DNA of 64,000 nucleotides, taken from positions 3,384,001 through 3,448,000 of the forward strand of contig OX359202.1 of the NCBI GenBank assembly GCA_947172415.1, read 5' to 3'. This document shows positions 3,545 through 59,188 of the stretch, one piece after another. Origin of the DNA: Chondrosia reniformis. Its lineage: Eukaryota; Porifera; Demospongiae; Chondrillida; Chondrillidae. How positions within the stretch are numbered: the first letter of the stretch is position 1; the number at the start of each line of letters is the position of its first letter. The notes under the pieces were generated by a model, which ran no database searches, was not told where the DNA came from, and worked only from the letters and a program-made list of their open reading frames with translations. Both the position numbers and the translations under genes were made by a program.

Positions 3545-3905
3545 GTGTGTATTTTATTCTATTGTTTTCATAACACAATTTATGTATGGCTTCATGTTAC
3601 GTATATATATATATATAATACGAGTTCATACGCAACTATTATAACACATTTTATACGTCGATATATGTATAATACGAGTTCATACGCAACTATTGTTACA
3701 CTTAATTTATACGTAAATACATCGTTTTTGCAAATGGCGGCGTTCAGGAAGCTTTAGTTAACAAAGCTTTTCTGTCGCTATTTATAATTTTCAGGACACT
3801 TACTCAATCGTTAGGATTAAGAATAATATATCAAAACCCAACGATGCGACCAAGTGGTTCGAGTAAATGTGGGGGCGGTAGCCCCACGAGTTTTTATACT
3901 CGAAC
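3545..3905. other. Unidentified insert with TA run, direct repeats and a nested hairpin
   Basis: A non-satellite stretch. It holds a (TA)n run near 3,603 and two direct copies of AATACGAGTTCATACGCAAC about 53 bases apart. Near 3,858-3,905, GTTCGAGTA is matched by TACTCGAAC, with a second GC-rich stem (GTGGGG / CCCCAC) inside. No coding region is convincing, and the family is unknown. Confidence 0.45.
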
Positions 3906-5112
3906 TTGTTTGTATTCTAGTTATATTTACTATTTGTATTTACTAGTTTTAAGTACTAATTGGATGTACTAGTTGTATGTACTAGTTTCTAGTTGTATGT
4001 AGTGTAGGTGTAGGTCCTGGTTTTATGTAGTATATATAGGAACTGGTTATATGTCTAAGTACTTGTTAAATGAACTAGTTGTATGTTCTAGTTTTATGCA
4101 CTTGTTAAATGTACTAGTTGCATGTACTAGCTGTGTGTAATAGTTGTATATACTTATTCTATGTACTAGTTGTATGTACAAGTAAGTAGTTGCATGAACT
4201 AGTTATATGTACTAGTTCTAGGTACTAGTTGTAGGTACTAGTTGTAGGTACCATGTGTATGGACTAGTAACAATCTGTATTTACTAGTTGTATGTACAAG
4301 TATTATGTAGTTAAACATACTGGTTGTATGTACTAGTTATATGTACTAGATGTGTGTACTAGTTGTATATACTGGTGGTAAGTAGTTATATGTACTATTT
4401 GTATGTACTACCTGTGTGTAATTCTAGTTATATGTACCAGTTGTATGAACTAGCTGTATGTACTAGTTATATGAACTGGTTATATGTATTCGTTATATGT
4501 CCTAGTTGTAGTATTAGTTGGATGTACTAGTTGGATGTACTAGTTGGATGTACTAGTTGTATGTACTAGTTTCTAGTTGTATGTAGTCTAGGTGTAGGTC
4601 CTGGCTTTATGTAGTATATATATGAACTAGTTAGACGTGAAAGTACTTGTTAAATGAACTAGTTGTACGTACTAGTTATATGAACTGGTTATATGTATTC
4701 GTTCTATGTCGTAGTTGTAGTTCTAGTTGGATGTACTGTATAATTGTATGTACTAGTTGTATGTACTTTGTGTATTTACTAGTTGTATGTTCTAGTAGGT
4801 AGTTGATTTACTAGCTATAAGTACTAGTTGTATGTACCAGCTGTAGGAACTAGTTGTAGGTACTGGTTGTATGTACTATTTCTATGTTCTAGTAGTATGT
4901 ACTAGTAGGTCATTGTATGTACTAGTTATTTGTACAAGTTGTATGTACTACTTGTATATATCAGGTGTATGTACACTGTAACATTCTATATTTACTAGCT
5001 TTAAGAACTAGTAGTACGTACTAGTTGTATATAGTTATATGTACTAGTTGTGTGTAATTGTTGTACGAACTAGTCGGGGAATTGGAGGCTGTGGTTCCGA
5101 GCTGACAAGAGG

Positions 5113-5784
5113 ATGGGTATTGTCCAGTTCAACCCCCCCAACAGAGCAGGGTGCTTAGCCCTTCATGTGGCATCCTGTGGGCTAAATCAGCCTCCCTGTC
5201 AGCATGGGCTAACCCCCGTCTGGCAGCTTCACTGGGTTACGTTGCGCCATGAGAATGACAATTTTCAAGACAGGCTGTGGCGTAGGTGCACCAGTTGTGA
5301 AGGAAACCCTGGGTCAACCAGAATAGGTGATTCCACTGGTGCCTCACAGGTAGATGTATCTGAATGTAATAGCCTTTCTTCGGTCCCCATGATGGGCCAA
5401 CCAGCCCTTTGGACCTAGGAAATGGTTAGGGCACTAATTGATTGCTATGAGTGATCTGAACCCAAAAGAGGTGGCTATCAGAAGCGTTTAGAGCGGGAAT
5501 GGCTGAGCAAATACCCACATTTGCCTCAGACTGGTCGAACCCTTGCTTTCCAAGCCAAAGGAACTTGGTAGGAGACGGAGTACTGCAAGTAACGGATAGC
5601 CAAGATTTAGATTATTATTAATGATGCACCGCAAGGTGCCTCTAGAAGGAGAAGGATCCAAGGGGTGATCTGGAACCTTCAGAGGGATAATATCCTCATA
5701 GAGCTCTACCAAGAAAGTAAGCACATGGTAAAGGGGTATGCCGAGCGGTGGTACCAGGCTTGGAATGCCAGACCATAAAACCAC
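5113..5784 (+). pseudogene. LINE copy 1 N-terminal region (Myb-like)
   Basis: The first readable part, 5,113-5,418, has paired cysteines (CGLNQPPCQHG; RCTSCEGNPG) and matches copy 2. Downstream, in broken frames near 5,400-5,560, lies the region that in copy 2 reads FWTEEMVRALIDCYE, then GGYQKRLEREWLSKYPHLPQ. The spacing of W, L, W and the T..L..Q end suggests a Myb/SANT-type DNA-binding helix bundle, as R2-group LINEs use to find their target. The zinc-binding role of the cysteines is a guess. Several stops and shifts make it non-functional. Confidence 0.55.
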
Positions 5785-6120
5785 AAAGGTAGCGCTAACT
5801 ACAAGAGTTAGTAGAATCCGAAGAGGTCAAGGTCTCTCGAGACTAAACTTTGTGGAACCTGACTCTCGTAGTGTTGCCACCCTAACTGAGACTGTGGAGG
5901 AAGGTATGAGAGCCTAGGGACAGGAAGAGCCTCACCAAGTTCAGGCTGGGACCGTACAAAATGGTGAGATGTTTACAGGCCCTGTTGAAACTCCCACACA
6001 TGATCATCCCAGTCCAGGAAAAGTGGCAATGATCATCTGATGCAACTTCTAGGCAAAGCAAAAGATGCCTGACTCCGAAGGAAACCTGGAGATTTTGCTG
6101 ATAGAAAACCCTGTGGGGCG

Positions 6121-7108
6121 GTGCAGTTCAACCATGTGGATACGGCACTGCTTCAGGAGGCAAATGATTGGGTGGAGAAAGAGTGGCAGGAAGGCCCTAG
6201 GTCGGCCTGGCACCTGAACTGCCTGGTCTACTCTGTTGCTATAGCTGTGAGGGGAAAAAAACAACGAATCGCAGCCATGCAACCAGGGAAGGAAATCAGG
6301 CAATCAAAGGAGTAGTAAGAGACAAGGAGGTCACATAAGTGACAGGAAGGCCAAAGGCCTTATGTTTAGAAGACTGCTTGCCTGGTTGGATGTGGAAATA
6401 GCGCGCCAACAGAGTAATAATCCTATGATCAAACAACAGAAAGTACTCCAAAGTAAGCTTAGGAGGGAGTTACATTCATTAAACCTAAATGTGCTGATCA
6501 AAGCTCGGGAACAGACACTGGGGAAACTCAGGGTCTGGACTCTACAAGAGCGAAGATCGGCTGAACACAGGAAATTCCAGGAACAAAACCATCTTTGGAA
6601 TACCCAAAGGAAGTTCCGGATGAATGGCAATGTTCCAACCTCCAATGAAGCTCCCTCAATTGAGGTAGTAAGAGACTTTTGGACAAAGATTGTAGGTACT
6701 GCTGGTAAGGTCAACAAAGACGACCCAGGGGTGAAAGAATGGCTAAAGGAAACCAAAAAGAGGGTGGGTAGAACCTCCTCTGAAGGTCCCAATAGCATTG
6801 ATGAGACCAAACTGAGGAAAGCCTTGAGAAAGGCAAAAAGCTGGTCAGCCCCTGGGCCGGATGGCATCCACACTTTTTGGTGGAAAGCACTCCCCTCTGC
6901 ACAGTCTGCCTTGGCAGATGAACTACGGAAGGTGGTGAGCGGAGATCTGTCAGTCCCAGACTGGCTTACAAGGGGTCGCACTCTACTCATCCCCAAAAAG
7001 GGTGACCCGAAAAGGGCGGCCAACTACCGACCTATTGCGTGTCTCAACACAATGTACAAGGCTGTCACAGCATACATTGCATCAGAATTACTCTTACACC
7101 TACACTAA
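6121..7108 (+). pseudogene. LINE copy 1 RT fingers (motifs 0-2)
   Basis: A first frame from 6,121 (VDTALLQEANDWVEKEW) is followed by 6,362-7,108. The latter carries a basic helical stretch, then RT motif 1 SWSAPGPDGIHTFWWKALP (about residues 160-180 of that frame) and motif 2 RTLLIPKKGDPKRAANYRPI. This is the template-binding part of the reverse transcriptase. The frame ends near 7,108, where the next part continues in another frame, so a frameshift lies at about 7,090. Copy 2 at 25,159-26,130 is closely similar, which supports real former coding. Confidence 0.85.
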
Positions 7109-8024
7109 TGATCTTTTTCCTATGGCTCAACGAGCCATGAGGAAAGGGAGGTGGCGCTGTGTGGACTGTCTATTGCTGGATCAATCAATCGGTCTAGATG
7201 CCAAAATTATGGGCAAGCCACTTAGTGTGGCATGGATCGATTATGAGAAGGCATACGACAGAGTCCCTCACAAGTGGGTGATGAAGGTACCAAAAACCAT
7301 CAAGTGCCCAGGTTGGATCCGGAGGTCTATAGAGCTCTTCTCCAAACACTGGGCTACTGTGCTTGAGTTGAGGACTGCGGGAAAGGTGGTTAGGAGCACC
7401 CCTGTTATATTTTACAGGGGACTCTTCCAAGGAGACTCCTTATTGCCACTCCCCTTTTGTCTGGCCATAGCTACCATATCCCAAGTTCCTAACAGAACCA
7501 AGGGATATACCCTATGGTATAATGGGGAAAGGAACACCATGTCACACTTGTTGTACATGGATGACCTTAAGATATATGCTGGAGGGCCTGATAAACTCAG
7601 GGAAGCCATGGAATGGGTGGAGAAAACCTTAAATGCCATTGGCATGAGGTTTGGAGTGAGAAAGTGTGGAAGAGCTCACATGCCAAAGGGGAAAGTTCTG
7701 GTTAGGCCAGACAACCCTGAACGCAGTGAAGAATCCATAAGGAGCCTTGAAAAAGGTACTAACTATAAGTACCTAGGGCTAGAACAACTGTTTGAGGTAG
7801 ATGACAGCAAGGTCAAAGCTTGCTTGATCAACGAATTGAGGAGGAGACTCCACAAAGTGTGGGGCTCTCACCTCAATGGTAAGAATGCTGCAGAAGCCTC
7901 TAACATGTTGTGTGCCTCTCTATTGAGATACTCTTACCCAGTTTTGAAGTGGACTCAAAGTGAACTTCCAAAACTGGACCGAATGGTGAGAAAGATCATG
8001 AGAAAGTACCAGTGTCATCACTAA
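7093..8024 (+). pseudogene. LINE copy 1 RT palm and thumb with intact catalytic motifs
   Basis: This frame is open upstream to 7,002, but homology to the family starts near 7,093 (TYTNDLFPMAQRAMRKG). Motif A is AWIDYEKAYDRVPHKW (about 7,228-7,275), motif B is GLFQGDSLLPLPFCLAI (about 7,420-7,470) and motif C is HLLYMDDLKIYAG (about 7,545-7,585). All three catalytic aspartates are present. YMDDLK is typical of R4/Dong-type LINEs. The thumb follows, ending MRKIMRKYQ. This is the only copy of the family in the window with a catalytic palm. Confidence 0.88.
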
Positions 8025-8042
8025 AACTCTGCCATTGAAAGA

Positions 8043-9097
8043 GTGAACTTGCCTCGCTCTCAAGGTGGTAGAGGGCTCTGTAGTTTTCCTTTGGATCACG
8101 ACCGGGCTATTGTGAATCTGGCAAGATACCTCCATACTGCCAATGATCCACTTATAGCTGTTGTGGTTAAACACCAAAAGTGGCTGGAGTGCTCAAAGCA
8201 GAGGAGGACTGTCTTGAAAGAAGCCAGATTGATACTGAGAAGCCACGGAATAGAGCTAAAACCGGAAATGTGGCTGAAGACATATCCCTCACAAAATAGT
8301 GTAAGAGAATGGAGGAGAGTGGCACGTGAGCTCCGGGAGGCTCAGACTGAAAGGTTAAAAAGTGACCTAGCTGAAAAGTCTCACCAGGTCTCATACCACA
8401 GACAAGTCACAAATAGGGAGTCTTATGTGTGGCTTTCTGAGGGGAGACTAAGACCTCAAACTAAGGCTCTGATTCTCGCAGCCCAAGATGATGTGCTGAA
8501 CACTAGGTGGCAAGGCTATGGAAACGGTCAAACACATACTATACATGTGTGAGCCCAAGGGATTTTCTCTCTACAAAGAGAAGCATGACCGGGCGATACT
8601 GATAGTGTTGTGGAGATGGTTGAAAGAATATGGATTCAAGCAGGAAGAGCCCTGGTACAAACTAGAAGCAAAACCAGTCTATGAGAATAGGTCTGTCAAA
8701 ATCTTGTGGGATCCTAGCATCCCTACAGATGAAGAAATGACAGAAAGAAGGCCAGACTTAGTGGTTGAAGATCGGCTATAAGTCTATCTGCATTGTTGAG
8801 ATGTCAGTTCCTACTGACAGCAATATTAATGGAAGATGGCAAGAGAAGTTCCAAAAGTACCAGAAGCTGGCTGCTGATATGAGGAAACAATTTAGGGGCT
8901 ACCGAATTAAGGTAGTCCTGATGATAATTGGTGCTTTGGGGACAGTGGACACGCTCCAGGAAGACCTTAGGGGAATTCCAAAGCTGTCAAAAGATGTAGT
9001 AGAAGTGATGAGAGCCATGCAGAGAACTGTTTTCTGCTCGGCTGTGAGGATATTGAGGCGACATCTATCTGTTGAGGGATTGGGGCCTGGACGATAA
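8043..9097 (+). pseudogene. LINE copy 1 linker and restriction-like endonuclease
   Basis: Three frames cover this part: 8,043-8,552, 8,518-8,781 and 8,765-9,097. The linker matches copy 2. The endonuclease core reads RPDLVVEDRL, then IVEMSVPTDSNINGRWQEKF, the R-PD...E/D pattern of REL nucleases that make the target nick for RNA copying. The C-terminal part has VVLMIIGALGTV. The CCHC knuckle seen in copy 3 (C-x2-C-x8-H-x4-C) has been damaged by a small deletion near 8,515. Frameshifts separate the three pieces. Confidence 0.82.
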
Positions 9098-9304
9098 GTA
9101 GTCCTGTCCCAGTCCTTGCCTGTCGACTTCTGGAAAGCAGTGGTGGATTTCTGTATGGAGGCACTCCTTCCTATTATGACGGTCAACTTTGGCCCGACGT
9201 GCACCTGTCTGCTGCTTCCGGAAAGAAACAAAGCCGAGGCTTCTGGCTAAAAACCCGAAGGAAGGAAAACATAACTGACTGAGGGTTGTCCAAGCCAGAT
9301 ACTC

Positions 9305-9327
9305 CTTGCCTTAGTAAACTAAGGTAG
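9305..9327 (+). other. 3' UTR stem-loop of LINE copy 1
   Basis: TGCCTTAG, TAAA loop, CTAAGGTA. The same stem-loop is better kept at 27,560-27,583 and 33,272-33,295. Its position just before the 3' end suggests the RNA element that the reverse transcriptase recognises. Confidence 0.6.
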
Positions 9328-9366
9328 GAAGTAACATAGTTCCCCGTTAAGGCTTTTGTTTCTAAA

Positions 9367-9850
9367 GTAGTAATTAGTGTATGTACTAGTTTTATTTGCT
9401 AGTTCTATTTACTTTTAACTAGTTGTATGTACTGGTTGCATGTACTAATAACTAGTTGTAGTTAATAGCTGTATGTACTAGTTGTTTGAACTAGTTGTAT
9501 GTAGTTTATATGTCCTACTTGTATGTACTAGTTGTATAATGTATGTATGTATTAGTTATATTTACTAGATGTAGTTAATAGTTTTATTTACTAGTTGTAT
9601 GTACTAGTAACTAGATGGATGTTCTAGTTGTATGTACTGGTTATTTGTACTATTTGTGTGTATTAATTTTATGTACTAGATATATGTACAAGTTTAATGT
9701 ACTAGTTGTGTCTACTAGTTGTATGAACTAGTTGTATGTATTAGTTGTATGTACTAGTGGCTGGTTGTATGTATATAGTCTAGGTGTATGTACTAATTTT
9801 ATGTTATAGTAATATGTGTATGTACTGGTTATAAACACTATTTGTATGTA
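9367..9850 (+). repeat. 13-bp minisatellite block 2
   Basis: Continuation of the ACTAGTTGTATGT array between LINE copy 1 and the family B Penelope-like pair. Its last 13 bases, CTATTTGTATGTA, are repeated just right of that pair at 13,281. Confidence 0.95.
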
Positions 9851-11576: not shown

Positions 11577-11749
11577 TATTGGCCGGAGGGGATCCCTGTC
11601 TTGTGCACCTTCGGAAGTCCATAGAGGAGGGGAACCTTTCCAGCAGAGCTCCTCAGCCGTTGATAGAGCCGCTCCGAAATGGCCCCAGATCTCATCAACG
11701 GCAGAAGTAGAGCGTTCATCTTACTCTCCTGGACCAATGTCAACACCTC

Positions 11750-19200: not shown

Positions 19201-21803
19201 GTTGTGTGTAATTGTTGTATGTTCTAGTTGTATGTACTAGTTATATGTACTAGGGTTATGTACTAGATGTATGTACTAGAAACTAGATATATATGGTAGT
19301 TGTATGTACTAGTTTTATGTAGTAGTTTTATGTACTAGCTGTATGTACTAGTTGTATGTAGTTATATGTAGTACTTGTATTCACTAATTGTGTGTATTGT
19401 TGGATGCTAGTTATATTTACTAGTTCTTTTACTAGTTTTATGTACTAGTTGTATGTACTAGTTGTATGTACTTGTTATATGTACTAGTTTCATGTACTAG
19501 CTCATGTAATAGTTATATGTACTGGACTAGTTGTATTTACTAGGTGTATGTACTAGTAACAATCTGTATTTACTAGTTTTAAATACTAGTTTTTTGTAGT
19601 TATATGTACTAGTTGTAGTTACAAGTTGTATGTACTGGTTATATATACTATTTGTTCGTACTCGTTACTAGTTTTATGTTGTAGTTGTATGTACTAGGAC
19701 TAGTTTACTAATTATAGGTTCTAGTTGTATGTACTCAATTCTAAGTACGTAGTAGTTGCATGTTCTAATTCTCTGTACTAATTGTATGTACAAGTTATAT
19801 CTCGTTGTATGTTCCAGTTGTATGGACTAATTGGATGTTCTAGTAATGTAGTAGTTGTAGGTAGTCGTTGTACGTACTAGTTGTTTGTACTAGTAGTTTG
19901 TTCTAGTTTATGTACTGTTTATATGTACTAGTTGCATGTACTAGTTATTTGTACTAATTGTATGTACTAGTAGTATGTACTAGTTACTAGTTGTATGTAC
20001 TAGTTGTATGTACTAGTTATATGTACTAATTGTATGTACTAGTAGTATGTACTAGTTACTAGTTGTGTGTACTAGTTGTACGTACTAATTTCTAGTTGTA
20101 TGTAGTCGAGGTATATGTACTAGTTATATTTATTAGTTATTTGTACTAGTTTTATGTCCTAGTTGTAGTACTATATAGTTGTATGTACAAGTTGTGTGGA
20201 CTACTTGTATGTACTAGTTTTAGGTTTTAGTTGAATGTACTAGCTGTATGTAATAGTTCTATGTACTAGTTGTAGTTCTAGTTTAATGATCTAATTGCAT
20301 GTACTAGTTGTATATACAATTTATATACTAGTAATATGTGCATGTTCTAGACATATGTTCTAATTGTAAGTACTAGTTGTATGTACTAGTTATGAAGTAC
20401 TCGTCTATGAACTAATTCTATGTACTAGTTTTAGAACTAGTTGTATGTACTAGTTGTATTGACTAGTGGTATATACTAGATATATGTACTATTTATATGT
20501 ACTAGTCATACGTGTGTGTACTAGTTATATGTTAGTAATTGTGTGGTCTAGTTGTATGTACTCTTTGTGTGTACTAGTTGTATTTACTGGTTTTATGTAC
20601 TAGTTGGATGTATTAGTTGTTTTTACTAGTCGTATGTACTATTTGTATGTAGTTATATGTTCTACTTGTATGTTCTAGTTGAGTAATTGTTTTATGTACT
20701 AGATATATTTACTAGTTTTATGCACTAGATACAAGTTGTTTATACTAGTTGTATGTACTAGGTATATATAGTAATTGTGCATACGTAGTGTTTGTAATTG
20801 TTACTGGTACTAGTTAAATTTACTAGTTGTAGTTACTAGTTGTATGTATCAGTTGTATGTACTAGTAGGCTGTACTACTAACTAGTTGTATGTACTAGTT
20901 GTATGGCTAGATGTATGTACTAATAATTATCTACATGTCCTAGTTGTATGTACCAGTTGTATGTACTAGTTGTATGTACTAGTTGTATGTACCAGTAATT
21001 ATCTGCATATTTTAATTATATGTACTAGTTGTATGTTCTAGTTTTATGTAGTTATATGTACTAGATACTAGTTGTATATGCTAGTTGTATGTTGCAATTA
21101 TATGTACTAGTTGTACGTACTAATTGTGTGTAATTGCATTATGTATATACTAGTTATATTTACTAGTTTTATTTACTAGTTGTATGTACTAGTTGTATGT
21201 ACTAGTAACTAGTTGTATTTATAGGTAGTAGTTGTTTTTACTAGTTGTATATAGTAGTAACTTCTTGTATGTACTATTTCTATGTAGTAGTTGTATGTCC
21301 TAGTTTATGTATTAGTTGTATGTACTAATTGTATGTACTAGTAACTATCTGTATGTATGGAGTTCTATGTACTCGTTGTATATACTTGTTGTGTGCCATT
21401 GTTGTATGTACTAGTTATATTTAATAGTTGTAGTTACTAGTTGTATGAACACGTTCTATGTACTAGTTGTATGTACTAGTTTTATGTACTATTTATATGT
21501 ACAATTTTAAGTTTTGTGCACTAGTTGTATAAACTAGTTACTGGTTGTATGTACTAGCTGTATGTAGTCTAGTTGTATGTACTAGTAATATTTTCTAGTT
21601 ATATATGTATGTACTGGTTATATGTAAAAGTTGTATGTACTAGTTGTATGTACTAGTTATATGTACTAATTGTAGTACTAGCTGTATGTACTTGTTTTAT
21701 GTACTAATTGTATGTACTAGTTGAATGTACTAGTTGTATGTACTAATTCTATGTAATAATTATGTACTAGTTATAGGTACTAATTGTATGTAATAGTTTT
21801 ATA
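13281..21803 (+). repeat. 13-bp minisatellite block 3 (longest uninterrupted, 8.5 kb)
   Basis: Pure CTAGTTGTATGTA-type array with no element inside it. The marker AACAATCTGTATTT recurs irregularly (about 15,448; 15,910; 16,362; 17,680; 18,221 onward; 19,550). The stretch 13,300-13,640 is closely repeated at about 45,650-45,905 and 50,520-50,830. No gene is present, and the small frame at 19,016-19,201 is translated repeat. Confidence 0.97.
18221..18700 (+). repeat. 160-bp higher-order unit, three near-identical copies
   Basis: The word TAACAATCTGTATTTACTAG starts at 18,221, 18,381, 18,541 and 18,701, exactly 160 bases apart. The intervening text (GTAGCTATATATACTAG, then AGCTGTCTGTAA and ACAAGGCATATG) is almost identical in each unit. 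This is the youngest tandem amplification visible in the array. Confidence 0.95.
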
Positions 21804-24072: not shown

Positions 24073-24156
24073 TCCCTATTGTGGGAATTGGAGGCCGTGG
24101 TTCCGAGCTAACAAGAGGATGGGTATTGTCCAGTTCAACCCCCCCAACGGAGCAGG

Positions 24157-25102
24157 GTGCTTAGCCCCTCATGTGGCATCCTGTGGCTAAATCATCCTCC
24201 CTGTCAGCATGGGCTAAGCCCCATCTGGCAGCTTCACTGGGATACGTTGTGCCATGAGAATGACAATTTTCAAGACAGGCTGTGGCCTAGGTGCACCAGT
24301 GGTGAAGAAAGCCCTGGGTCAACCAGAATAGGTGATTCCACTGGTGCCTCACAGGTAGATGTACCTGAATGTATTATGGGCCAACCAGCATTTTGGACCG
24401 AGGAAATGGTTAGGGCACTAATTGATTGCTATGAGTGATCTGAACCCAAAAGAGGTGGCTATCAGAAGCGTTTAGAGTGGGAATGTCTGAGCAAGTACCC
24501 ACATTTGCCTCAGACCGGTCGAACCCTTGCCTTCCAAGCCAAAAGGAACTTGGTAGAAGATGGAGTACTGCAAGTAACTGGTAGCCGAGATCTAGATTTG
24601 GTTAATGATGCACCGCAAGGTGCCTCTAGAAGGAGAAGGATCCAAGGGGTGATCTGGAACCTTCAGAGGGATAATATCCTCATGGAGCTCTACCGAGAAA
24701 GTAAGCCCATGGAAAAGGGGTATGCCGAGCGGTTGTACTAGGCTTGGAATGCTAAAATGCCACACCATAAAACCACAAAGGTAGCACTAGAGAATTAGTA
24801 GAATCCGAAGAGGTCAAGGTCTCTCGAGACTAAACCTTGTGGAACCTGACTCTTGTGGTTTAGCCACCCTAACTGAGACTGTGGAGGAAGGTGTGGGAGC
24901 CCAGGGGCAAGGGGAGCTTCACAAAGTTCAGGCTGTGACTGAACAAAATGGTGAGCTGCCTTCAGCCCCTGTTGAAACTCTTACAAATGATCATCCTAGT
25001 CCCAGGACAAGTGGCAATGATCAACTGATGCAACTTCTAGGCAAAGGAAAAGATGCCTGTCTCCGACAGAAACCTGGAGATTTCTCTGATAGAAAACCCT
25101 GA
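24157..25102 (+). pseudogene. LINE copy 2 N-terminal region (Myb-like, then acidic linker)
   Basis: Three frames follow one another: 24,157-24,438, 24,505-24,741 and 24,839-25,102. The first ends FWTEEMVRALIDCYE. After a stop the second continues with the region that pairs W, RL, W and P..PQTGRTLAFQAK, the spacing of a Myb/SANT-type domain. It ends in a basic NLQRDNILMELYRES segment. The third is an acidic, low-complexity linker (TVEEGVGAQGQGELHKVQ). R2-group LINEs bind their target with Myb and zinc-finger motifs in this position. The domain call is from pattern only. Confidence 0.55.
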
Positions 25103-25158
25103 GGGGTGGTGCGGTTCAACCATGTTGATACGGCACTGCTTCAGGAGGCCATGATTGG

Positions 25159-26398
25159 GTGGAGAAAGAGTGGCAGGAAGGCCCTAGGTCAGCCTGGCAC
25201 CTGAACTGCCTAGTCTACTCTGTTGCTATGGCTGTGAGGGGAAAAAAAACCTACGAATCGCAGCCATGCAACCAGGGAAGGAAATCAGATAATCAGAAGG
25301 GAAGTAAGAGACAGGAAGGTCACATAATTTACAGGAAGGCCAAAGGCCTTAGGTTTAGAAGACTGCTTGCCTGGTTGGATGTGGAAATAGCGCGTCAACA
25401 GAGAAATAATCCTATGACCAAACGCCAGCAAGTTCTCCAAAGTAAGCTTAGGAGGGAGTTACATTCATTTAACCTGAATGTGCTGATCAGAGCTCGGGAA
25501 CAGACACTGGGGAAACTCAGGGTCTGGACCCTACAAGAGCGAAGATTGGCTGAACACAGGAAATTCCAGGAACAAAACCACCTTTGGAATACCCAAAGGA
25601 AGTTCCGGATGAATGGCAATGTTCCAACCTCCAATGAAGCTCCCTCAATTGAGGTAGTAAGAGACTTTTGGACAAAGATTGTAGGTACTGCTGGTAAGGT
25701 CAACAGAGACGACCCAGGGGTGAAAGAATGGCTAAAGGAAACCAAAAAGAGGGTGGGTAGAACCTCCTCTGAAGGTCCCGATAGCATTGATGAGACTAAA
25801 CTGAGGAAAGCCTTGAGAAAAGCAAAAAGCTGGTCAGCCCCTGGGCCGGATGGCGTCAACACTTTTTGGTGGAAAGCACTCCCCTCTTCACAGTCTGCCT
25901 TTGCAGATGTACTACGGAGGGTAGTGAGCAGAGATCTGTCAGTCCCAGACTGGCTTACAAGGGGTCGCACTCTACTCATCCCCAAAAAGGTGACCCGAAA
26001 GGTGCGGCCAACTACCGACCTATTGCGTGTCTCAACACAATGTACAAGGCTGTCACAGCATACATTGCATCAGAATTACTCACTTACACCTACACTAATG
26101 ATCTTGTACCTATGGCTCAACGAGCCATGAGGAAAGGGAGGTGGCGCTGTGTGGACTGTCTATTGCTGGATCAATTAATCGGTCTAGATGCCAAATTATG
26201 GGCAAGCCACTTAGTGTGGCATGGATCGATTATGAGAAGGCATACGACAGAGTCCCTCACAAGTGGGTGATGAAGGTGCTAAAAACCATCAAGTGCCCAG
26301 GTTGGATCCGGAGGTCTATAGAGCTCTTCTCCAAACACTGGGCTACTGTGCTTGAGTTGAGGACTGCGGGGAAGGTGGTTAGGAGCACCCCTGTTTAA
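25159..26398 (+). pseudogene. LINE copy 2 RT fingers and start of palm
   Basis: The main frame, 25,159-26,130, runs from MEKEWQEGPRSAWHLNC through the basic helical part to SWSAPGPDGVNTFWWKALP and RTLLIPKK. It then shifts frame into 25,866-26,270 (GDPKGAANYRPIACLNTMYK) and 26,141-26,398, which holds motif A AWIDYEKAYDRVPHKW. Motif B begins but is followed by a 24-bp tandem duplication (26,400-26,423; 26,424-26,447) and then the deletion junction. No YMDD remains, so reverse transcription is impossible. Confidence 0.85.
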
Positions 26399-26470
26399 TA
26401 TAACAGGGGACTCTTCAAAGGAGATAACAGGGGACTCTTCAAAGGAGACTCCTTATCGCCAGAACCTGAA

Positions 26471-27537
26471 ATGTGGCTAAAGACAGATCCCTCACAAAAT
26501 AGTGTAAGAGAATGGAGGAGAGTTTCACGTGAGCTCTGGGAGGCTCAGACTGAAAGGTTAAAAAGTGACCTAGCCAAAAAATCTCACCAGGTCTCATACC
26601 ACAGACAAGTCACAAATAGTGAGTCGTATGTGTGGCTTTCTGATGGGAGACTCAGACCTCAAACTGAGGCTCTGATTCTCGCAGCCCAAGATGATGTGCT
26701 GCACACTAGGTGGTACCAAAATAGGATTCTGAGGAATTCTAACCTCCTGATGTGCAGAGAAGGTGGCAAGGCTATGGAAACGGTCAAACGCATACTAACA
26801 TGTGTGAGCCCAAGGGATTTTCTCTCTACAAAGAGAGACATGACCGGGCAATACTGATAGTGTTGTGGAGACTGTTGAAAGAATATGGATTCAAGCAGGA
26901 AGAGCCCTGGTACAAACTAGAAGCAAAACCAGTCTATGAGAATAGGTCTGTCAAAATCTTGTGGGATCCTAGTATCCCTACAGATGAAGAAATGACAGAA
27001 AGAAGGCCAGACTTAGTGGTTGAGGATCGGCTATGTAAGTCCATCTTCATTATTGAGATGTCAGTTCCTACTGACAGCAATATTAATGGAAGATGGCAAG
27101 AGAAGTTCCAAAAGTACCAGAAGCTGGCAGCTGACATGAGTAAACACTTTAGGGGCCACCAAATTAAGGTAGTCCCGATGATAATTGGTGCTTTGGGGAC
27201 AGTGGAGATGCTCCTGGAAGACCTTAGGGGAATTCCAAAGTAGTCAAAAAGTGCAGTAGAAGTGATGAGAGCCATGCAGAGAACTGTTCTCTGTTCGGCT
27301 GTGAGGATATTGAGGCGACATCTATCTGTTGGGATTGGGGCCTGGACGATAAGTAGTCCTGTCCCAGTCCTTTCCTGTCGACTTCTGGAAAGCAGTGGTG
27401 GATTGGTGTATGGAGGTACTCCCTCCCATTATGACCATCAACTTTGGCCCGACGCGCACATGTCTGCTGCTGCCGGAAGAAGGCAAAGTCGAGGCCTCTG
27501 GCTAAAAACCCGAAGAAAGGAAAACATAACTGACTGA
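26471..27537 (+). pseudogene. LINE copy 2 linker, CCHC remnant and REL endonuclease
   Basis: After the deletion the frame 26,471-26,857 carries the linker and a knuckle reading MCREGGKAMETVKR, in which a zinc-binding Cys and the His are replaced. The frame 26,752-27,243 carries RPDLVVEDRL and IIEMSVPTDSNINGRW, with PMIIGALGTV near its end, the endonuclease core. The frame 27,262-27,537 gives the tail (TVLCSAVRILRRHLSV). It closely matches copies 1 and 3. Confidence 0.82.
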
Positions 27538-27559
27538 GGGTTGTCCAAACCAGATACTC

Positions 27560-27583
27560 CTTGCCTTAGTAAACTAAGGCAAG
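27560..27583 (+). other. 3' UTR stem-loop of LINE copy 2
   Basis: Perfect 10-bp stem CTTGCCTTAG / CTAAGGCAAG with a TAAA loop. It is followed at 27,586 by GTAACAAGGTTCTCCG, which resembles the 3' end of 18S rRNA (GTAACAAGGTTTCCG). Confidence 0.75.
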
Positions 27584-27621
27584 AAGTAACAAGGTTCTCC
27601 GTAAAGGCTTTTGTTTCAAAG

Positions 27622-30294
27622 TATGTATTAGTTGAATGTACTAGATGTACTGACTAGTTTCTAGTTGTGTGGTCTAGTTGGGTGTACAAGTTGCATGTTC
27701 CAGTTGTATGTACTAGTTCCATGTAATAACTATATGTACTAGTTTTATGTAATAGTTGTATGTAATAGTGGTTTATAATGTTGTATGTACTAGTTATATT
27801 TACTTGTGGTAGTTACTAGTTGCAAGTACTAGTTGAATGTACTAGTTGTGTGTAATTGTTGTATTTACTAGTTATATATACTAGTTGTAGTGACTAGTTG
27901 AATATTCTAGTTGTATGAACTAGTTGTATGTAATAGTTGTATGTACTGGCTACTAGTTGTATGGTTTTGTTGTGTGTACTCGTTTTATGGACTAGTTGTA
28001 TGTACTAGTTTTATGGACTAGATGTATGTACTAGTTGTATGTACTAGTTATATGTACAAGTTCTATGTACTAGTTATATTTACAAGTTTTAGTTAATAGT
28101 TGCATGTACTAGTTGTGTGTACTAGTTGTATGAACTAGTTGTATGTGCTAGTAATTCTTTGAATGTACTAATTGTATATACCAGTTATATGTACCAGTTG
28201 TATGCAATTATATTTACTACTTGTATGTACTAGTTGTGTGTACTAGAATATAGTTGTATACATAGGTACTAGTTGTATGTACTTCTTTTATATATGTACT
28301 AGTAACTAGTTGAACGTACTAAGTATATTTACTAGTTGTATGTACTAGTTGTATGTACTAGTTGTATGAATTAGTTGTATGTACTAGTTGTATGAATTAG
28401 TTGTATGTACTAGTTGTATGAACTAGTTGTATGTACTTGTAATTCTTTGAATGTACTAATTGTATATACCAGTTATATGTACTAGTTGTATGCAATTATA
28501 TTTACTACTTGTATGTACTAGTTGTGTGTAATTGTTGTATATACTAGTTATTTGTAATAGTTGTAGTTACTAGTTGTATGTACTTATTGTGTGTACTCTT
28601 TTTGTGTATGTACTAGTCATATGTAGTAGTTGAGTTTACTAGTTAAATGTACTAGTTTAAAGTACTGGTTGTGTGTATTAGTTGCATGTTCTCTTTGTAG
28701 GTTCTAATACTAGTTATACTAGGTACTAAGAAGGTATGTTTTTATGGCCTAGATACTAGTTGTATGTACTAGTTGTAGGTACTAGTTTTAAGTATTAGTT
28801 GTACGTACCAGTTGTGTGTAATTGTTGTATGTACTAGTTGCATTTACTAGTTGTATGAACTAGTTGTATTTACTAGTTGTATGTATTAGTTGAATGTACT
28901 AGATGTAATGACTAGTTACTAGTTGTGTGGTCTAGTTGTGAGTACAAGTTGCACATTCCAGTTGTATGTACAACTAAAGTAAGTATGTATTAGTTATATA
29001 TCCTAATTGTAGTACTAGTTGTGTGGTCTAGTTGTATGCACTAGTTGTATGTACTAATTGTTGGTACTTTTTCAATGTACTAGTTGTATGTACTAGTTGT
29101 TCGTACTCGTTACTAGTTTAATGTTGTAGTTGTATGAACTAGGACTAGTTTACTAATTAAAGGTTCTAGTTGTATGTACTCAATTCTAAGTAGTAGTTCA
29201 TGTTCTATTTGTTTGTACTAATTGTATGTACTAGTTAAATCTTGTTATATGTTCTAGTTGTATAGACTAATTGGATATATTAGTAATGTAATAGTTGTAG
29301 GTACTTGTTGTATGTACTAGTTTTATGTAATTGTTATATGTACTAATTGTATGTACTAATAGTTTGTTCTAGTTTTAGGTACTGTTTATATATACTAGTG
29401 TGATGTGTATGTACTGGTTATATGTACTAGTTGTATGTACTAGTTATATGTACTAATTGTATGTACTAGTAGTATGTACTAGTTACTAGTTGTATATACT
29501 AGTTGAATGTACTAGTTTCTAGTTGTATGTAGTCTAAGTGTGTGTACTAGTTATATTTACTAGTTATATATACTAATTTTATGTCCTTGGTGTAGTACTA
29601 GTTGTATGTACTAGTTGTTTGTACTAGTATTAGTTCTAGTTTTATGTACTATTTATATGAACTAGTTATATGTGTATGTACTGGTTAAATGTGCTAGTTG
29701 TATGTACTAGTTATATTTACTGGTTATATGTACTAGTTCTATTGACTAGTGGTAGTACTAGTTGAATTTACTAGTTGTATGTACTAGTTACTAGTTGTAT
29801 GTACTAGTTGTATGTACTAGTTTCTAGTTGTATGTAGTCTAGGTGTATGAACTAGTTATATGGACTTATTGTATTTACTAATTGTGTGTAATTGTTGTAT
29901 GTGCTAGTTATAATTACTAGTTGTAGTAACTAGTTGTATGTACTAGTTATATCTACTACTTGTATGTATTAGTAACTATTTGTATATATAGGTATTAGTT
30001 GTATGTACTAGTTGTATGTACTAGTTTTTTTACTTTGTATATACTAGTTGTATGTAATAGTTGTATATATGTTCTAGTAAGTAGTTGTATGTACTAGTTA
30101 TTTTTACTTGTTGTATGTACTAGTTTTATGTACTTGTTATATATACTAATTGTATGTTTATACTAGGTGTATGTACTAGTAGTAGTTCTAGTTTTATATA
30201 CTATTTATATGAACTAGTCATAGGTGTATGTACTGGTTAAATGTGCCAGTTGTATGTACTAGTTATATATACTGGTTATATGTACTAGTTCTAT
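27622..30294 (+). repeat. 13-bp minisatellite block 5, with two empty-site paralogues
   Basis: Array sequence. Positions 28,590-28,960 are a paralogue of the DNA on both sides of LINE copy 2 but without the LINE. Positions 29,650-29,790 are likewise a paralogue of the flanks of the TIR transposon at 30,295. A (TATGAATTAG / TATGTACTAG) dimer is repeated near 28,340-28,440. Confidence 0.95.
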
Positions 30295-31952: not shown

Positions 31953-33216
31953 GTTCTATTAACTAGTGGTAGTACTAGTTGAATGTATTAGTTGTGTGTA
32001 CTAGTTGTTTGTACTAGTTTAATGTACTAGTTGTATATACTAGTTGTATGTACTAGTTACTATTTGTCTCTACTAGTTGTCTGTACAAGTTTCTAGTTGT
32101 ATGTAGCCTGGGCGTATGTACTAGTTATATGTACTTATTGTATATACTAGTTGTGTGTAGTTGTTGTATGTGCTAGATATAATTACTAGTTGTATGTACT
32201 AATTATATCTATTAGTTGCATTTACTAGTTACTAGTTGTATATTTAGGTATCATTTGTTTGTACTAATTGTATGTTCTAGTTTTATGTACTGTTTATATG
32301 TACTAGTTATATCTGTATTTACTGGTTATATATACTAGTTGTATGTACTAGTTATATGTACTAATTGTATTTACTAATTGTGTGTAATTGTTGTATGTAC
32401 TAGTTGTATGTATTAGTTTAATGTAGTAGTTGTATGTACCAGTTGTATGTTATAGTTTTATGTACAGTTTATATATACTAGTTATATGTGTATGTACTGG
32501 TTATATATACTAGTTGTACGTACTAGTTTTATGTACTAATTATATGTACTAGTTTAATGTTTTGTGTACTAGTTTTATGTCCTAGTTGTAGTACTAGTTG
32601 TATGTCCTAGTTGTATGTACTAGTAGTATGTTCTAGTTTTATGTACTATTTATATGAACTAATTATATGAGAATGTAGTGGTTCAATGTACTAGTTGTAG
32701 TACTAGTTGTATGTACTAGTTGTATGTACTACTTGTATGTACTTATTATATGTATATACTTGTCGTATGTACTAGTTGTATGTCCTAGTTGTATGTACTA
32801 ATTGAATGTACTAATTGAATGTACTATAAAGCTGTGTGTACTAGTTGCAAGTACACGTACATAGTTGTATGTTCTAGTTGTATGTTCTATGTGTATGAAC
32901 TAGAACTTCTTATATTTACTAATTGGAGGTTCTAGTAGTATTTACTCCATTGTAATTAGATAGTTGCATGTTCTAATTGTATGTACTAAATGTATATACT
33001 AGTTATGTACTAGTTGTATGTACTGGTTGTATGTAATAGTTTTATGCACTTGTTATATATACTAATTGTATGTTTATACTAGGTGTAGGTACTAGTACTA
33101 TATTCAAGTTTTATGTACTATAAATATGTACTAGTTATATGTGTATTTACTGGTTATATGTACTACTTGTACCAACTAGTTCTATGTCCTAGTTGTAGTA
33201 CTAATTGTACTATATA
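31953..33216 (+). repeat. 13-bp minisatellite block 6
   Basis: Array between the TIR transposon and the rRNA scrap at the 3' end of LINE copy 3. No gene was seen. Confidence 0.95.
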
Positions 33217-33235
33217 CTTGTTACGACTTTTACTT
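33217..33235 (-). other. 19-nt footprint of the 18S rRNA 3' end
   Basis: On the minus strand the 19 bases AAGTAAAAGTCGTAACAAG follow directly on the LINE 3' end. They equal the near-universal segment just before the end of eukaryotic 18S rRNA. The outer seven bases (CTTGTTA on plus) could also be read as array sequence, but the inner 12 cannot. It is too short to be an rRNA gene. Confidence 0.75.
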
Positions 33236-34122
33236 GAAAAACAAAAGCCTTAACGGAGAACCTTGTTACTTCTTGCCTTAGTGTACTAAGGCAAGGAGTA
33301 TCTGGCTTGGACAACCCTCAGTCAGTTATGTTTTCCTTTCTTTGGGTTTTTAGCCAGAAGCCTCGGCTTTTCCTCCTTCCGACAGCAGCAGACGGGTGCA
33401 CGTCGGGCCAAAGTTGACCGTCATAATAGGAGGGAGTACCTCCATACACCAATCCACCACTGCTTTCCAGAGGTCGACAGGCAAGGACTGGGACAGGACT
33501 ACTTATCGTCCAGGCCCCAATCCCTCAACAGATAGATGTCGCCTCAATATCCTCACAGCCGAACAGAGAACAGTTCTCTGCATGGCTCTCATCACTTCTA
33601 CTGCACTTTTTGACAGCTTTGGAATTCCCCTAAGGTCTTCCAGGAGCGTGTCCACTGTCCCCAAAGCACCAATTATCATCGGGACTACCTTAATTCGGTA
33701 GCCGCTAAATTGTTTCCTCATATCAGCTGCCAGCTTCTGGTACTTTTGGAACTTCTCTTGCCATCTTCCATTAATATTGCTGTCAGTAGGAACTGACATC
33801 TCAATAATGAAGATGGACTTACATAGCCGATCCTCAACCACTAAGTCTGGCCTTCTTTCTGTCATTTCTTCATCTGTAGGGATACTAGGATCCCACAAGA
33901 TTTTGACAGACCTATTCTCATAGACTGGTTTTGCTTCTAGTTTGTACCAGGGCTCTTCCTGCTTGAATCCATATTCTTTCAACAGTCTCCACAACACTAT
34001 CAGTATTGCCCGGTCATGCCTCTCTTTGTAGAGAGAAAATCCCTTGGGCTCACACATGTTTAGTATGTGTTTGACCGTTTCCATAGCCTTGCCACATTCT
34101 CTGCACATTAGGAGGCTAGAAT
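33236..34122 (-). mobile_element. REL-type LINE (R4/Dong-like), copy 3, 5'-truncated
   Basis: The 3' terminal 0.9 kb of the family on the minus strand. It starts within the CCHC knuckle and includes the whole REL endonuclease and the 3' UTR with its stem-loop (33,272-33,295). Severe 5' truncation is normal for LINE copies. It is joined to the 18S footprint rather than directly to the array. Confidence 0.88.
33503..34108 (-). CDS. LINE REL endonuclease domain with CCHC knuckle (201 codons, fragment)
   Basis: This is the cleanest C-terminal region of the family. It starts MCRECGKAMETVKHILNMCE, a knuckle C-x2-C-x8-H-x4-C. A helical region WRLLKEYGFKQEEPWYKLEA follows. The endonuclease core is RPDLVVEDRL, then IIEMSVPTDSNINGRWQEKF, where the PD and the downstream E are expected metal-binding residues, and KYQKLAADM. 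The tail is VVPMIIGALGTVDTL and SAVRILRRHLSV. REL nucleases nick the target to prime reverse transcription. The frame is open throughout, but it is only a truncated tail and has no promoter, so it is a fossil rather than a gene. Confidence 0.85.
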   Translation of the reverse strand: MCRECGKAMETVKHILNMCEPKGFSLYKERHDRAILIVLWRLLKEYGFKQEEPWYKLEAKPVYENRSVKILWDPSIPTDEEMTERRPDLVVEDRLCKSIFIIEMSVPTDSNINGRWQEKFQKYQKLAADMRKQFSGYRIKVVPMIIGALGTVDTLLEDLRGIPKLSKSAVEVMRAMQRTVLCSAVRILRRHLSVEGLGPGR

Positions 34123-37012
34123 TAGAATGTACTAGAATGTACTATATAGGTGTATGTAATTGTTGAATGTACTAGTTGTATTTACTAGTTGTGTGTATTA
34201 GTTGTATGTACTAGTAAGTGGTTGATGTACTTGTTATATGTACTAGTTGCATGTACTAGCTGTATGTTCTAATTGTATGTTCTAGTTGTATGTATTAGTA
34301 AATGGTTGTATATATAAGGAAGTAATTGTAGGTTATATATAGTTATATTTACTTATTGTATGTACTAGTTGAATGTACTACGTTTATGTACTAGTAACAA
34401 TCTGTATTTACTAGTTGTATGAACAAGTTGTATGTACTGGTTGTATGTAGTTATCTGTACTAGTTGTATGGTATGTTTGGTGTAATTGTTGTACGTACTA
34501 GTTATATTTACTACTTGTAGTTACTAGTTTTATGTACTAGTTGTATGTACTAGCAACTAGTTGTATTTACTAGTTATATGTACTAGTTATATGAACTAGT
34601 TACATGTATTGGTTATATGTACTTGTTCTATGCCCTAGTTGTAGTACTGGTTCTATGTACTAGTTGTATGTACTGGTTGTTTGTACTAGTTGTATGTACG
34701 TGTTATATGTATATACTAGGTGTATGAACTAGTTTTGTGTATTTGTTGTATGTACTAATTGAATGTACTATTTAAATCTACGATATAGTTGGATGCACTA
34801 AGTTGTAAGTTCACGTTACTAGTTTTTTGTTCCAGTTGTATGTATTTACTATTTGTATGTACTAGTTATGTACTAGTAGTATGTTCTAGTTTTATGTAAT
34901 AGTTTTATGTACTTGTTATATATACTACTTGTATGTTTATACTAGTTGTATGTAATAGGAGTATGTTCTAGTTTTATGTACTATATATATTTACTAGTTA
35001 TATGTGTATGTACTGGTTATATGTACTAGTTGTATGGACTAGTTATATGTAATAGTTATATGTACTAGTTATGTTCTGGTTGTATGTACTAGTTGTATGC
35101 AATAGTTTGATGTGCTTGTTATATATACTAGTTGTATCTACTAGTTGTATTTACTAGTTGTAGTTGTTTGTACTAGTTGTATAAACTAGTAAGTAGTTGA
35201 TATACTAATTATATGTACTAGTTTTATGTACTAGCTGTATGTACTAGTGGTATATACTAGTTATATTTACTAATTGTATGTTCCTGTTAAATTTACAAGG
35301 TGTATGCACTACAAACAATCTGTATTTACTAGTTGTATTTATTAGTTGTATGTACTAGTTCTGTTTAATTGTTGTACGTACTAAATATATTTACTAGTTG
35401 TAGTTACTAGTTGCATGTACTAATTGTATGTTCTAGTTGTATTTACTAGTAACTAGTTGTATGTTCAAGTTGTATTTACTAGTAACTAGTTGTTTGTACT
35501 AGTTGTATGTGCTAGTTGTATATACTAGTTGTAAGTAGGAGTTGTATGTACTATCTGTATGTACTAATTGTATTTACTAGTTGAATGTACTAGTTGTATG
35601 TACTCAATTCTTAGTAGTAGTTTATGTACTAGCTGCATGTACTAGTTATGTGTACTAGTTGTTTGAACTAAGTGTCTTTAGTTTTATGTGGTACTTGTAT
35701 GTATAGTTGTGTGTAATTTTTGTATGTACTATTTATATTTACTAGTTTTAGTTACTAGTTTTATGCACTAGTTGTATATACTAGTTGTGTGTACTAGTAA
35801 CTAGATGTATGTACTAGTTGTATCTACTAGTTATATGTACGTATTGTATGTACCAGTTGTATGTACCAGTTGTATGTACCAGTTGTATGTACTAGGTGTA
35901 TGTACTAGTTGTGTGTACTTGTTGTATGTAGGGTTGTATGTACTAGTTGTATATATGTTCTAGTAAGTAGTGGTCTGTACTAGTTGTATGAACTAGTTGT
36001 ATGTGCTTATTGAATGTACTATATAGTTGTATGGACTAGTTTTAATGCATGTGACTAGGTGCACTGCATTTAGTAGTTCTTCTTATATTCACTAGTTGGA
36101 GGTTTTAGTTGTATGTACTCAATTGTAAGAATATAGTAGTTGCATGTTCTAATTGTATGTGCATAGTTGTATTTACTGGTTCTATGTACTAGTTAAATGT
36201 ACTAGTTGTATGTACTAATTGTATGTACTAGTAACTAGTGGTATATATAAGTACTTCTTGTAAGTACTAGTTGTATATACTAGTTGTATATATGTACTAG
36301 TAACTAGTCGTATGTACTAGTTATATATACTTGTTGTATATACTAGTTGAATCTACTAGTTGTTTAAACTAGTTCTATGTAATAGTTGTATGTACTAGAA
36401 ACTATCTGTATGTATAGGAACTAGTTGTATATACTAGTTTTATTTACCTGTTATATGTACTAGTCCTATGTCCTTGTAGTATGTTCTACTTTTATGTATT
36501 TTTACTATGTACTAGTTATATTTGTATGTACTAGTTGTATCTACTAGTTGTGTGTACTAGTTGTATGTACTAGTAAATAGTTGTATATATAGGTAGTAGT
36601 TGAATGTACTAGTTGTATGTACTAGTTGTATGTACTAGTAACTATCTGCATGTCTTAGATGCATGTAGTAGTAGTATATGGTAGTTGTGTGCAGTTATAT
36701 GTAATAGTTGGTTATACTAGTTATATGTACTACTTGTATGTACTAGTTGTATGTAGTTATATATACTAATTGTATTTACTAATTGTGTGTAATTGTTGTA
36801 TGTACTAGATATATTTACTAGTTTTTGGTGCTAATTGTATCTTCTAGTTGTATAAACTAGTAACTAATTGTATATATAGGTAATAGTTTTATGTACTAGT
36901 TGTATTACTAGTAACTTGCCGTAAGCACTAGTTATATGTACTAGTTGTATGTACTAGTTGTATGTACTAGTTGTATGTACTAGTTGTATGTAATAGTTGT
37001 ATGAGAGAATAT
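34123..37012 (+). repeat. 13-bp minisatellite block 7
   Basis: Array with the usual variants. No element or gene was seen until the Penelope-like end fragment at 37,013. Confidence 0.95.
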
Positions 37013-43086: not shown

Positions 43087-43251
43087 GTGAGATTACAGGG
43101 CATGGTGACTTATATATCGGTAGGGGGAGGGGCAGGTGAGATGGCTGTGGGCGGGAAAATAATGGGCGGGAAGCTGGGAGTGTGGGTGGTCACGTGAGGT
43201 ATATTTTATGCAGTGAGATAAAACAAACAGTGCAGTAAGTAAGGAATAAAT

Positions 43252-43715
43252 ACGTTAAGCATCTGTCAGAATCCATTCGGCGCATCCTCTCCCCGCTGAA
43301 GATCCGTACCTGCTTCAGACCACACCGGACTCTGAGACAGGCACTGGTCAATTTGAAGGACCGGGTCCCTCTCCAGCAGAAGGCAGGGGTGATCTACAGG
43401 ATCCCCTGCAACGGTTGCCCCAGAGTGTATGTAGGCCAGACTGGCAGAACACTGACCCAACGGCTGAAGGAACACAAACGGGCTCTAGTGAGTGGACACC
43501 TGGCACAGTCGGCAGTGGCAGAGCATGCTGCACAGGAGTCGCACGACATTGACTGGGAGGGTGCCACAGTGATGGATGTTCAGCAGCAATATCACCAGAG
43601 ATGCCTGCTGGAATCGTGGCACATCCGATCTGAATTGAACACAATGAATAGAGATGAAGGCAACCTCCCCCCGGTTTATGACCTCCTCGTGCACCAGCCT
43701 CGATCCTCAGACTAG
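43252..43715 (+). pseudogene. GIY-YIG endonuclease, family B second pair
   Basis: Begins abruptly at VKHLSESIRRILSPLKIR (about 43,254) and runs to 43,715. It includes GVIYRIPCNGCPRVYVGQTG, RTLTQRLKEHKRAL, HDIDWEGATVMDV and LLESWHIRSELNTM. It differs from the 10-kb copies at a handful of residues (NG for SG, LT for LA, ES for EL). There is no RT. It is a truncated relic of the same recent family. Confidence 0.82.
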
Positions 43716-49625: not shown

Positions 49626-49998
49626 TATCATCATCATTAAACTCTGGGTATTACCCCTGCCCACTCATGTCCCCTGAGGAGCGCAATGAGCTCATGGGCG
49701 GAACCGAAGTTCGCTTGATGGGAACCAGAGTCTCCCCCTAGCCACTCAAAAAGATAGTCGAGCCATAGACAGCTGTTTCGTCCTTATTAGGACTCATCAG
49801 TATGGCATACGATGGAAGTTTGAGTGGCTAGTCTGCTAATAAGTACTTCCAGAAGCAAAAAGGCTTGTGGTTTCCTTATCAGCAGATAAGGGGTACAGCC
49901 AAGAGTGTGGCTGACCACTAATATGGAAAAAATAGGGGAACTTTAAGATCAAAACCGATCTTAAAGCATCGATATCATCATCATTAAGCTCGTAACAA
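49626..49998 (-). mobile_element. Small hammerhead-bearing element (SINE- or retrozyme-like), about 370 bp
   Basis: Non-satellite segment flanked by 15-bp direct repeats TATCATCATCATTAA (49,626-49,640; 49,973-49,987). Besides the ribozyme it has three strong hairpins: 13-bp arms CTAGCCACTCAAA / TTTGAGTGGCTAG (49,738-49,750; 49,819-49,831) enclosing the ribozyme, CTTATC/GATAAG (49,875-49,890), and CTTTAAGATC / GATCTTAAAG (49,941-49,966). On the minus strand it ends in an (ATG)n-like tail. There is no protein, so it must be non-autonomous. I do not recognise the family. Confidence 0.7.
49762..49806 (-). ncRNA. Hammerhead ribozyme, consensus-perfect
   Basis: Minus strand: stem I GCCATA/TATGGC (6 bp), core CTGATGA, stem II GTCC/GGAC with a TAATAA loop, GAAA, then CAGCTGTC. 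Cleavage is expected after GTC. Stem III is the palindrome ACAGCTGT, which allows two pairs with a 4-base loop or a stronger dimer. Every invariant core base is present. Confidence 0.9.
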
Positions 49999-58630: not shown

Positions 58631-59188
58631 TTATCTGATATGCATATTATATATCTTTTATATTACATATATATGTAGTGTCAAAAGTGTGTGTTATATA
58701 AATAGGACTTCATTTACAACATATATTTGGTGACCCACGTGACCGATGGTGTTACGGATGACATTCTCTGGATATAAGGTACGAGGATGCCCTGGTTCAA
58801 TACCAGGCTAGGTCACCGGAAAAAAGAAAAAAGTATAAATCTTATATATGTATTATATCTGATATGTAATATATATTGTATATATGTTATATGTATATTA
58901 TATATCTTATATATTACATATATATGTAGAGTCAAAAGTGAGTGGTATATAAATAGGACTTGATTTACAACATCTATTTTGGGTGACCAACGTGACCATT
59001 GATGTTACGGATGCCATCGTCTGGATACAAGGTACGAGGATGCCCTGGTTCAATACCAGGCTGGGTCACTTGAAAAAAGAAAAAAAATTATAAATCTTAT
59101 ATATAATATATATATATTTTATATATCTTATATGCATATTATATAACTTATATATAACAAATATATGTAGAGTCAAAAGTGAGTGATA

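Follow-up and report, generated by a model that had tools for sequence, protein, structure and literature searches.

The 18S rRNA tail of a satellite-borne LINE

In the sponge Chondrosia reniformis, a 5'-truncated LINE that lies in satellite DNA is joined at its 3' end to a short piece of 18S rRNA sequence, and the locus raises the question of how a ribosomal tail came to be attached to a retrotransposon copy there. The copy is the third of three in the window, by which we mean the whole stretch of DNA analysed here (64,000 nt; G000:C14:3384001-3448000); the genome searched comprised 117.38 Mb in 15 contigs. On the minus strand copy 3 reads ...GGCTTTTGTTTTTC, continues with AAGTAAAAGTCGTAACAAG at 33235-33217 and then passes into satellite (Table 1). 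On both strands and with up to four mismatches, this is the only site of the 19-mer in the window, and in 18S, at three rDNA loci, the LINE is followed by the same 19 nt. A preliminary description, made from the sequence of the window, had stated that copy 3 passes directly into the 18S 3' region, and both the exact 19-mer and the identical junction in three 18S genes bear this out. A cmscan of the 76-nt window stretch on its own did not return the SSU model; the tail is assigned to 18S because it is identical to the rDNA loci, one of which (on C8) was tested and matched RF01960 with E 1.2e-16 over model positions 1771-1831.

Copy 3 is 95-96% identical to copies 1 and 2, and its first LINE block is at 34111-34123. 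The sole duplication around it is an 11-nt repeat in a repetitive array, with 14 nt between the left copy and the truncated LINE end. Copies 1 and 2 end in AAAGTA, as had been described, at 9364-9369 and 27618-27623. A very long degenerate 13-bp satellite (TACTAGTTGTATG) makes up much of the window, for example 13281-21802 and 34127-37003, and is host to many LINE copies.

Table 1. LINE copies and associated features in the window
Feature	Position	Strand	Evidence
LINE copy 1, near full length, broken frames, 3' end ...TTTCT + AAAGTA	5073..9369	+	
LINE copy 2, internally deleted, 3' end ...TTTC + AAAGTA in satellite	24081..27623	+	
18S-like stretch in LINE copy 2 3' UTR	27586..27602	+	sequence match
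TATATAGTACA adjoining the 18S tail, candidate target-site duplication, right-hand copy (left-hand copy at 34138-34148)	33206..33216	-	weak
18S rRNA tail, 19 nt (AAGTAAAAGTCGTAACAAG), joined to LINE copy 3 3' end	33217..33235	-	exact match, single site
LINE copy 3, 5'-truncated: ORF end (CCHC knuckle, putative restriction-like endonuclease region) and 3' UTR	33236..34123	-	
18S-like stretch GTAACAAGGTTCTCCGT in LINE copy 3 3' UTR	33253..33269	-	11-nt exact word, score 27
Inverted repeat, predicted hairpin, immediately upstream of 18S-like stretch	33272..33295	-	read from sequence

The 3' UTR of the LINE had also been described as resembling the target, at positions (33254-33271 and 27586-27601) that proved correct to 1-2 nt. 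The stretch GTAACAAGGTTCTCCGT aligns to GTAACAAGGTT-TCCGT, which follows the insertion site closely in 18S. When compared with the 50 nt of 18S that lie downstream of this site it scores 27 (reverse complement 14), a score attained by one of 5000 dinucleotide shuffles and by none of 174 other slices of the rDNA unit, the best of which reached 23. The resemblance claimed for the 3' UTR is upheld by the score, and a chance origin is unlikely. The stretch is probably an older captured tail, although it may instead be a functional imitation of the target.

The window also contains elements of other kinds. A Type I hammerhead ribozyme at 49762-49806 (-) exceeds the Rfam gathering score. Three frames, at 10203-11720 (-), 11711-12895 (+) and 43239-43715 (+), are presumably Penelope-like; the first two have almost identical sequences but run in opposite directions, and the first gives RT and GIY-YIG matches slightly below the Pfam cut-offs. 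A second LINE-like open frame of 957 aa at 55773-58646 (-), with RVT_1 at E 1.1e-17 and RPDG..WD near the C-terminus, is perhaps another REL type.

The insertion site in 18S rRNA genes

We searched the genome with an 83-nt query representing the 3' end of 18S. It occurs at three places in the readable genome (on C10, C8 and C4), each starting exactly where the LINE stops. In the alignment to the model, SSU sequence picks up again at the AAG that follows GAGG in the consensus. This puts the LINE between positions 1779 and 1780 of RF01960, at a distance of 52 nt from the 3' end of the gene; on three chromosomes the 3' end of the LINE adjoins the last 52 nt of 18S (SSU model 1780-1831). At 3/3 readable 18S 3' ends the LINE stands immediately before AAGTAAAAGTCGTAACAAGG, the arrangement that the preliminary description had proposed looking for in the rDNA arrays. 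The three junctions share the identical base and come with two ITS1 variants; 5.8S is present in two of the three loci and LSU in one, where it is readable over model positions 24-1449, and the insertions found are in 18S. The readable genome contains no uninterrupted 18S 3' end, the N stretches being uninformative on this point. On their 5' sides the rDNA insertions run into N, so that none of them is seen with both ends.

On C6, two LINEs lie head to tail with a spacer consisting of 13 nt of 18S, AAGTAAAAGTCGT, and both outer sides of the pair read N. A second insertion into the same site, duplicating 13 nt of target, would give just this arrangement, and the pair implies such a duplication. 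The 5' ends of the LINE lie at GTCGTGGG. In the C6 pair (L020), at about 3860-3877 (-), the GTCGT of the LINE 5' end equals the final 5 nt of AAGTAAAAGTCGT, the presumed duplication, and is perhaps another 18S remnant. A further head-to-tail pair (L065, C7:3705188-3705308) has an 18-nt satellite-like spacer and a diverged 3' end in the downstream copy.

It had been suggested that this family normally lives in the 18S gene. All three readable 18S ends support this as the identification of a home site, but 72 of the 75 exact LINE 3' ends lie outside visible rDNA and only 3 (perhaps 4) lie in it.

3' ends and relatedness of dispersed copies

These 75 exact 3' ends come from a pattern search of the genome, and all 75 flanks were read. 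With up to three mismatches there are 215 3' ends and 186 5' ends, most of the diverged ones unread. An alignment of genomic 3' junctions had been proposed as a check on the family's origin: 18S continues for at least 3 nt in 74/75 exact ends and for at least 5 nt in 64/75. The match is 50 nt long at the three rDNA loci, 21 nt at one end, 19 nt at one (the window copy) and 13 nt at one (the tandem); shorter matches are of 9 nt (1), 8 nt (1), 7 nt (7), 6 nt (14), 5 nt (35), 4 nt (7), 3 nt (3) and 0 nt (1). The longest tails outside visible rDNA are thus the 21 nt at C3:1609696 and the 19 nt of the window copy. By a simple motif count, 42/75 flanks score as 13-bp satellite, and 69/75 ends fall within 2.2-5.9 Mb on chromosomes of 6.8-10.4 Mb. 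The LINE ends cluster mid-chromosome.

Over the last 1400 nt, the C10, C4 and C6 tandem copies are identical and the C8 copy differs by 0.71%. Among 33 other copies, 23 are no more than 3% from one rDNA or tandem copy; the remaining 10 stand at 4.5-50% because of age, truncation or rearrangement. The 23 close ectopic copies differ on average by 1.56% from C10, by 1.16% from C8 and by 1.59% among themselves. It is likely that exchange has taken place recently between the rDNA and the dispersed copies, and we read the direction of that exchange from the tails and not from the divergence values. The idea of rDNA copies as strict masters was considered and set aside: the most central copy is the ectopic L045 (1.10%), followed by the rDNA copy on C8 (1.14%), and C10 is only average.

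Target-site duplications

We compared both ends of 30 copies, allowing 5' filler of at most 8 nt. Clean exact target duplications of 9-17 bp (mean 11.8) were present in 18/30 and absent in 12/30; filler of 3, 4 or 8 nt was required in three of the 18, and one of the 12 (L024) has a 13-nt duplication on a looser reading. The duplications overlap the 18S tail by a mean of 2.33 nt as compared with 0.84 nt in 3000 simulated satellite insertions (0/10000 resamples as high), a comparison that is biased upward because 22/30 copies, which end exactly in TTTTTCAAGTA, were picked from ends exactly in AAGTA, so that we place more weight on the 75 exact ends. Two readings suggest themselves: a preference of the endonuclease for AGTA, or pairing between the RNA tail and the primer.

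Two longer tails, one of 7 nt (L143/L061) and one of 8-9 nt (L022), lie outside 11-bp duplications, which indicates that the RNA did contain 18S letters. A clear target duplication is missing in both of the longest-tailed ectopic copies (19 and 21 nt), and for the 21-nt-tail copy nothing beyond an 8-nt word was found. The 19-nt tail of copy 3, the 21-nt tail elsewhere and these two tails outside duplications support the proposal that copy 3 derives from a transcript that ran on into 18S.

The base preceding the duplication is T in 17/18 clean cases (A in L132), non-satellite sites included, where 18S has G; the preceding base differs from the neighbouring tail letter by construction, and the T bias is informative only in part. 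Two LINE copies, L143/L061 and L124/L125, stand at matching positions in a pair of similar non-satellite sequences (GAGGATGTCCA and GGGGATGTCCA) and differ in the length of their tails, 7 and 2 nt.

The LINE protein

One dispersed copy has a frame of 1317 codons with an RVT_1 domain (E 2.3e-29) and YMDD. Two motifs of this frame were identified by pattern only: a CCHC knuckle (C-x2-C-x8-H-x4-C) at aa 1118 and, at aa 1202, RPDLVVED, whose RPD..E marks a putative restriction-like endonuclease region. Several marks of a REL non-LTR retrotransposon are present: an RT domain, 5'-truncated copies, duplications, a CCHC knuckle and a PD-type motif after the RT. We take the C-terminal half of the protein to resemble Rex6-like proteins. 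Solved structures matched by sequence were R2 proteins or R2-like reverse transcriptases in 5/5 distinct sequences. The N-terminus consists of two mutually similar W-rich repeats (score 69) that are Myb-like by eye and without a Pfam match, a search of a 270-aa N-terminal stretch giving none; there is no N-terminal CCHH zinc finger, as no CxxC precedes aa 654 of the 1317-aa frame. The earlier assignment to the R2 group is borne out only in part: the reverse transcriptase sequence is closest to R2 among solved structures, but an N-terminal zinc finger is missing. Judged from its sequence, the LINE would work like R2; we do not claim membership of the R2 clade. Six peptide patterns used to look for relatives in viral contigs gave no match.

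Proposed mechanism and alternative explanations

Based on these observations, we consider it very probable that this is an R2-like, 18S-specific LINE whose RNA reads into 18S, and that the resulting tail also permits insertion at AGTA/GTA sites, largely in the 13-bp satellite. Its home site would lie towards the 3' end of the 18S rRNA gene, with GAGG on one side and AAGTAAAAGTCGT on the other, and a full rDNA insertion would read ...GAGGAAGTAAAAGTCGT joined to GTCGTGGG at the 5' junction and ...TTTTTC joined to AAGTAAAAGTCGTAACAAGG at the 3' junction. The LINE RNA may be made within pre-rRNA, its 3' end running into 18S, and the cut strand would pair with the 18S tail and then prime reverse transcription. 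Such pairing would be exact in 18S, and elsewhere AGTA/GTA at the nick would be enough, so that the LINE could fill a GTA-rich 13-bp satellite. In copy 3, priming would have taken place 19 nt into the 18S part. A cmscan of 351 nt around the 5' end (E up to 5) for an HDV-like ribozyme returned only an unrelated chance match, and the predicted fold of the first 100 nt does not surpass that of shuffled sequences (z 0.63); since neither a ribozyme nor a distinctive 5' fold emerged, co-transcription is a step that we infer.

The short tails could be read otherwise. If the LINE's own terminus were ...CAAGTA and its targets satellite or AGTA sites, the rDNA copies would be a few non-specific insertions and the longer tails chance or target sequence. 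AAGTA alone could indeed be the LINE's own terminus, or reflect an endonuclease that prefers AGTA without pairing: 35/75 ends leave 18S exactly after AAGTA, the satellite is GTA-rich, and many duplications begin with AGTA or GTA. Non-specific insertion would nevertheless not be expected to put three LINEs at one base of 18S, chance cannot account for tails as long as 19 and 21 nt, and the 7 and 8-9 nt tails stand outside clean duplications; we regard this explanation as improbable.

An origin of the dispersed tails by exchange at the level of DNA, in which the LINE-18S junction was copied from rDNA through break repair or ectopic recombination, would suit the two longest-tailed copies, both 5'-truncated and lacking a convincing target duplication. 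It accounts poorly for tails graded from 3 to 21 nt that start from one base (74/75) and for the 9-17 bp duplications in 18/30 copies, which are marks of target-primed insertion, and we hold it to be a shade less probable still. That the rDNA insertions are a misassembly, with satellite LINE copies joined to collapsed rDNA contigs, is the least credible of the alternatives and very improbable: rDNA assembles poorly and the upstream halves of the rDNA loci read N, yet three chromosomes, with two ITS1 variants among them, have the junction at an identical base, and 19-21 nt of it recur at non-rDNA loci (C3:1609696 and the window copy).

The graded 18S tails preserve, in the genome itself, the points at which reverse transcription began, and with them the part played by RNA-target pairing in priming can be put to the test. 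We put forward more tentatively, as a possibility somewhat short of an even chance, that the 18S tail is a portable guide, whose rRNA letters prime at AGTA-like nicks and in this way serve both exact rDNA targeting and the colonisation of mid-chromosome satellite, and that repeated tail capture (the 18S-like 3' UTR, the 5' GTCGT) rewrites the ends of the LINE from its target. Were the tail such a guide, sponge R2-like elements described as 'non-site-specific' might have spilled over from rDNA homes that have escaped notice. Specificity for rDNA may be older or commoner than assumed, and may be hidden because rDNA is poorly assembled and other copies dominate.

Comparison with known systems

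The sponge LINE adds to the known rDNA-specific REL LINEs a variant with an 18S home and a large satellite-borne population bearing 18S scars. In a literature search of titles and abstract openings, neither a LINE at this 18S site nor the LINEs of Chondrosia reniformis came up as the subject of a paper. The closest parallel in target gene is R8 of Hydra (R8Hm-A and R8Hm-B; R2 superclade), likewise a REL-type non-LTR element in 18S rRNA genes (PMC5035012). The same paper places R8 within the R2A clade, whereas the sponge LINE is without an N-terminal zinc finger; the likeness concerns the target gene.

With the 28S-specific R2 the LINE shares a reverse transcriptase nearest 9nl2 and 8gh6, a CCHC knuckle, RPD..E, target duplications and 5' truncation. 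It departs from R2 in that the target seen is 18S where R2 has 28S, in its two Myb-like repeats and the lack of a CCHH finger, and in its many copies outside rDNA. Sequence derived from 28S, near the insertion site, is described in PMC5035012 for the 3' UTRs of the fish elements R2Gs, R2Pt, R2Bs-A, R2Bs-B and R2Sb and for the end of R2Hm-B. A copy of rRNA at the 3' end is thus common to these elements and the sponge LINE, in which it comes from 18S and occurs as graded tails on dispersed copies too.

Among sponges, a 2026 survey (PMC13188248) describes R2-homologous retrotransposons as non-site-specific, those with Myb domains having variable flanks; 'Chondrosia' does not appear in its main text. 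The survey builds its discussion of models of R2 origin on that description, and the presence in a sponge of a REL LINE with an 18S site matters to these models. The Chondrosia LINE is likewise a sponge R2-like element, and departs from the description given there in having an 18S site.
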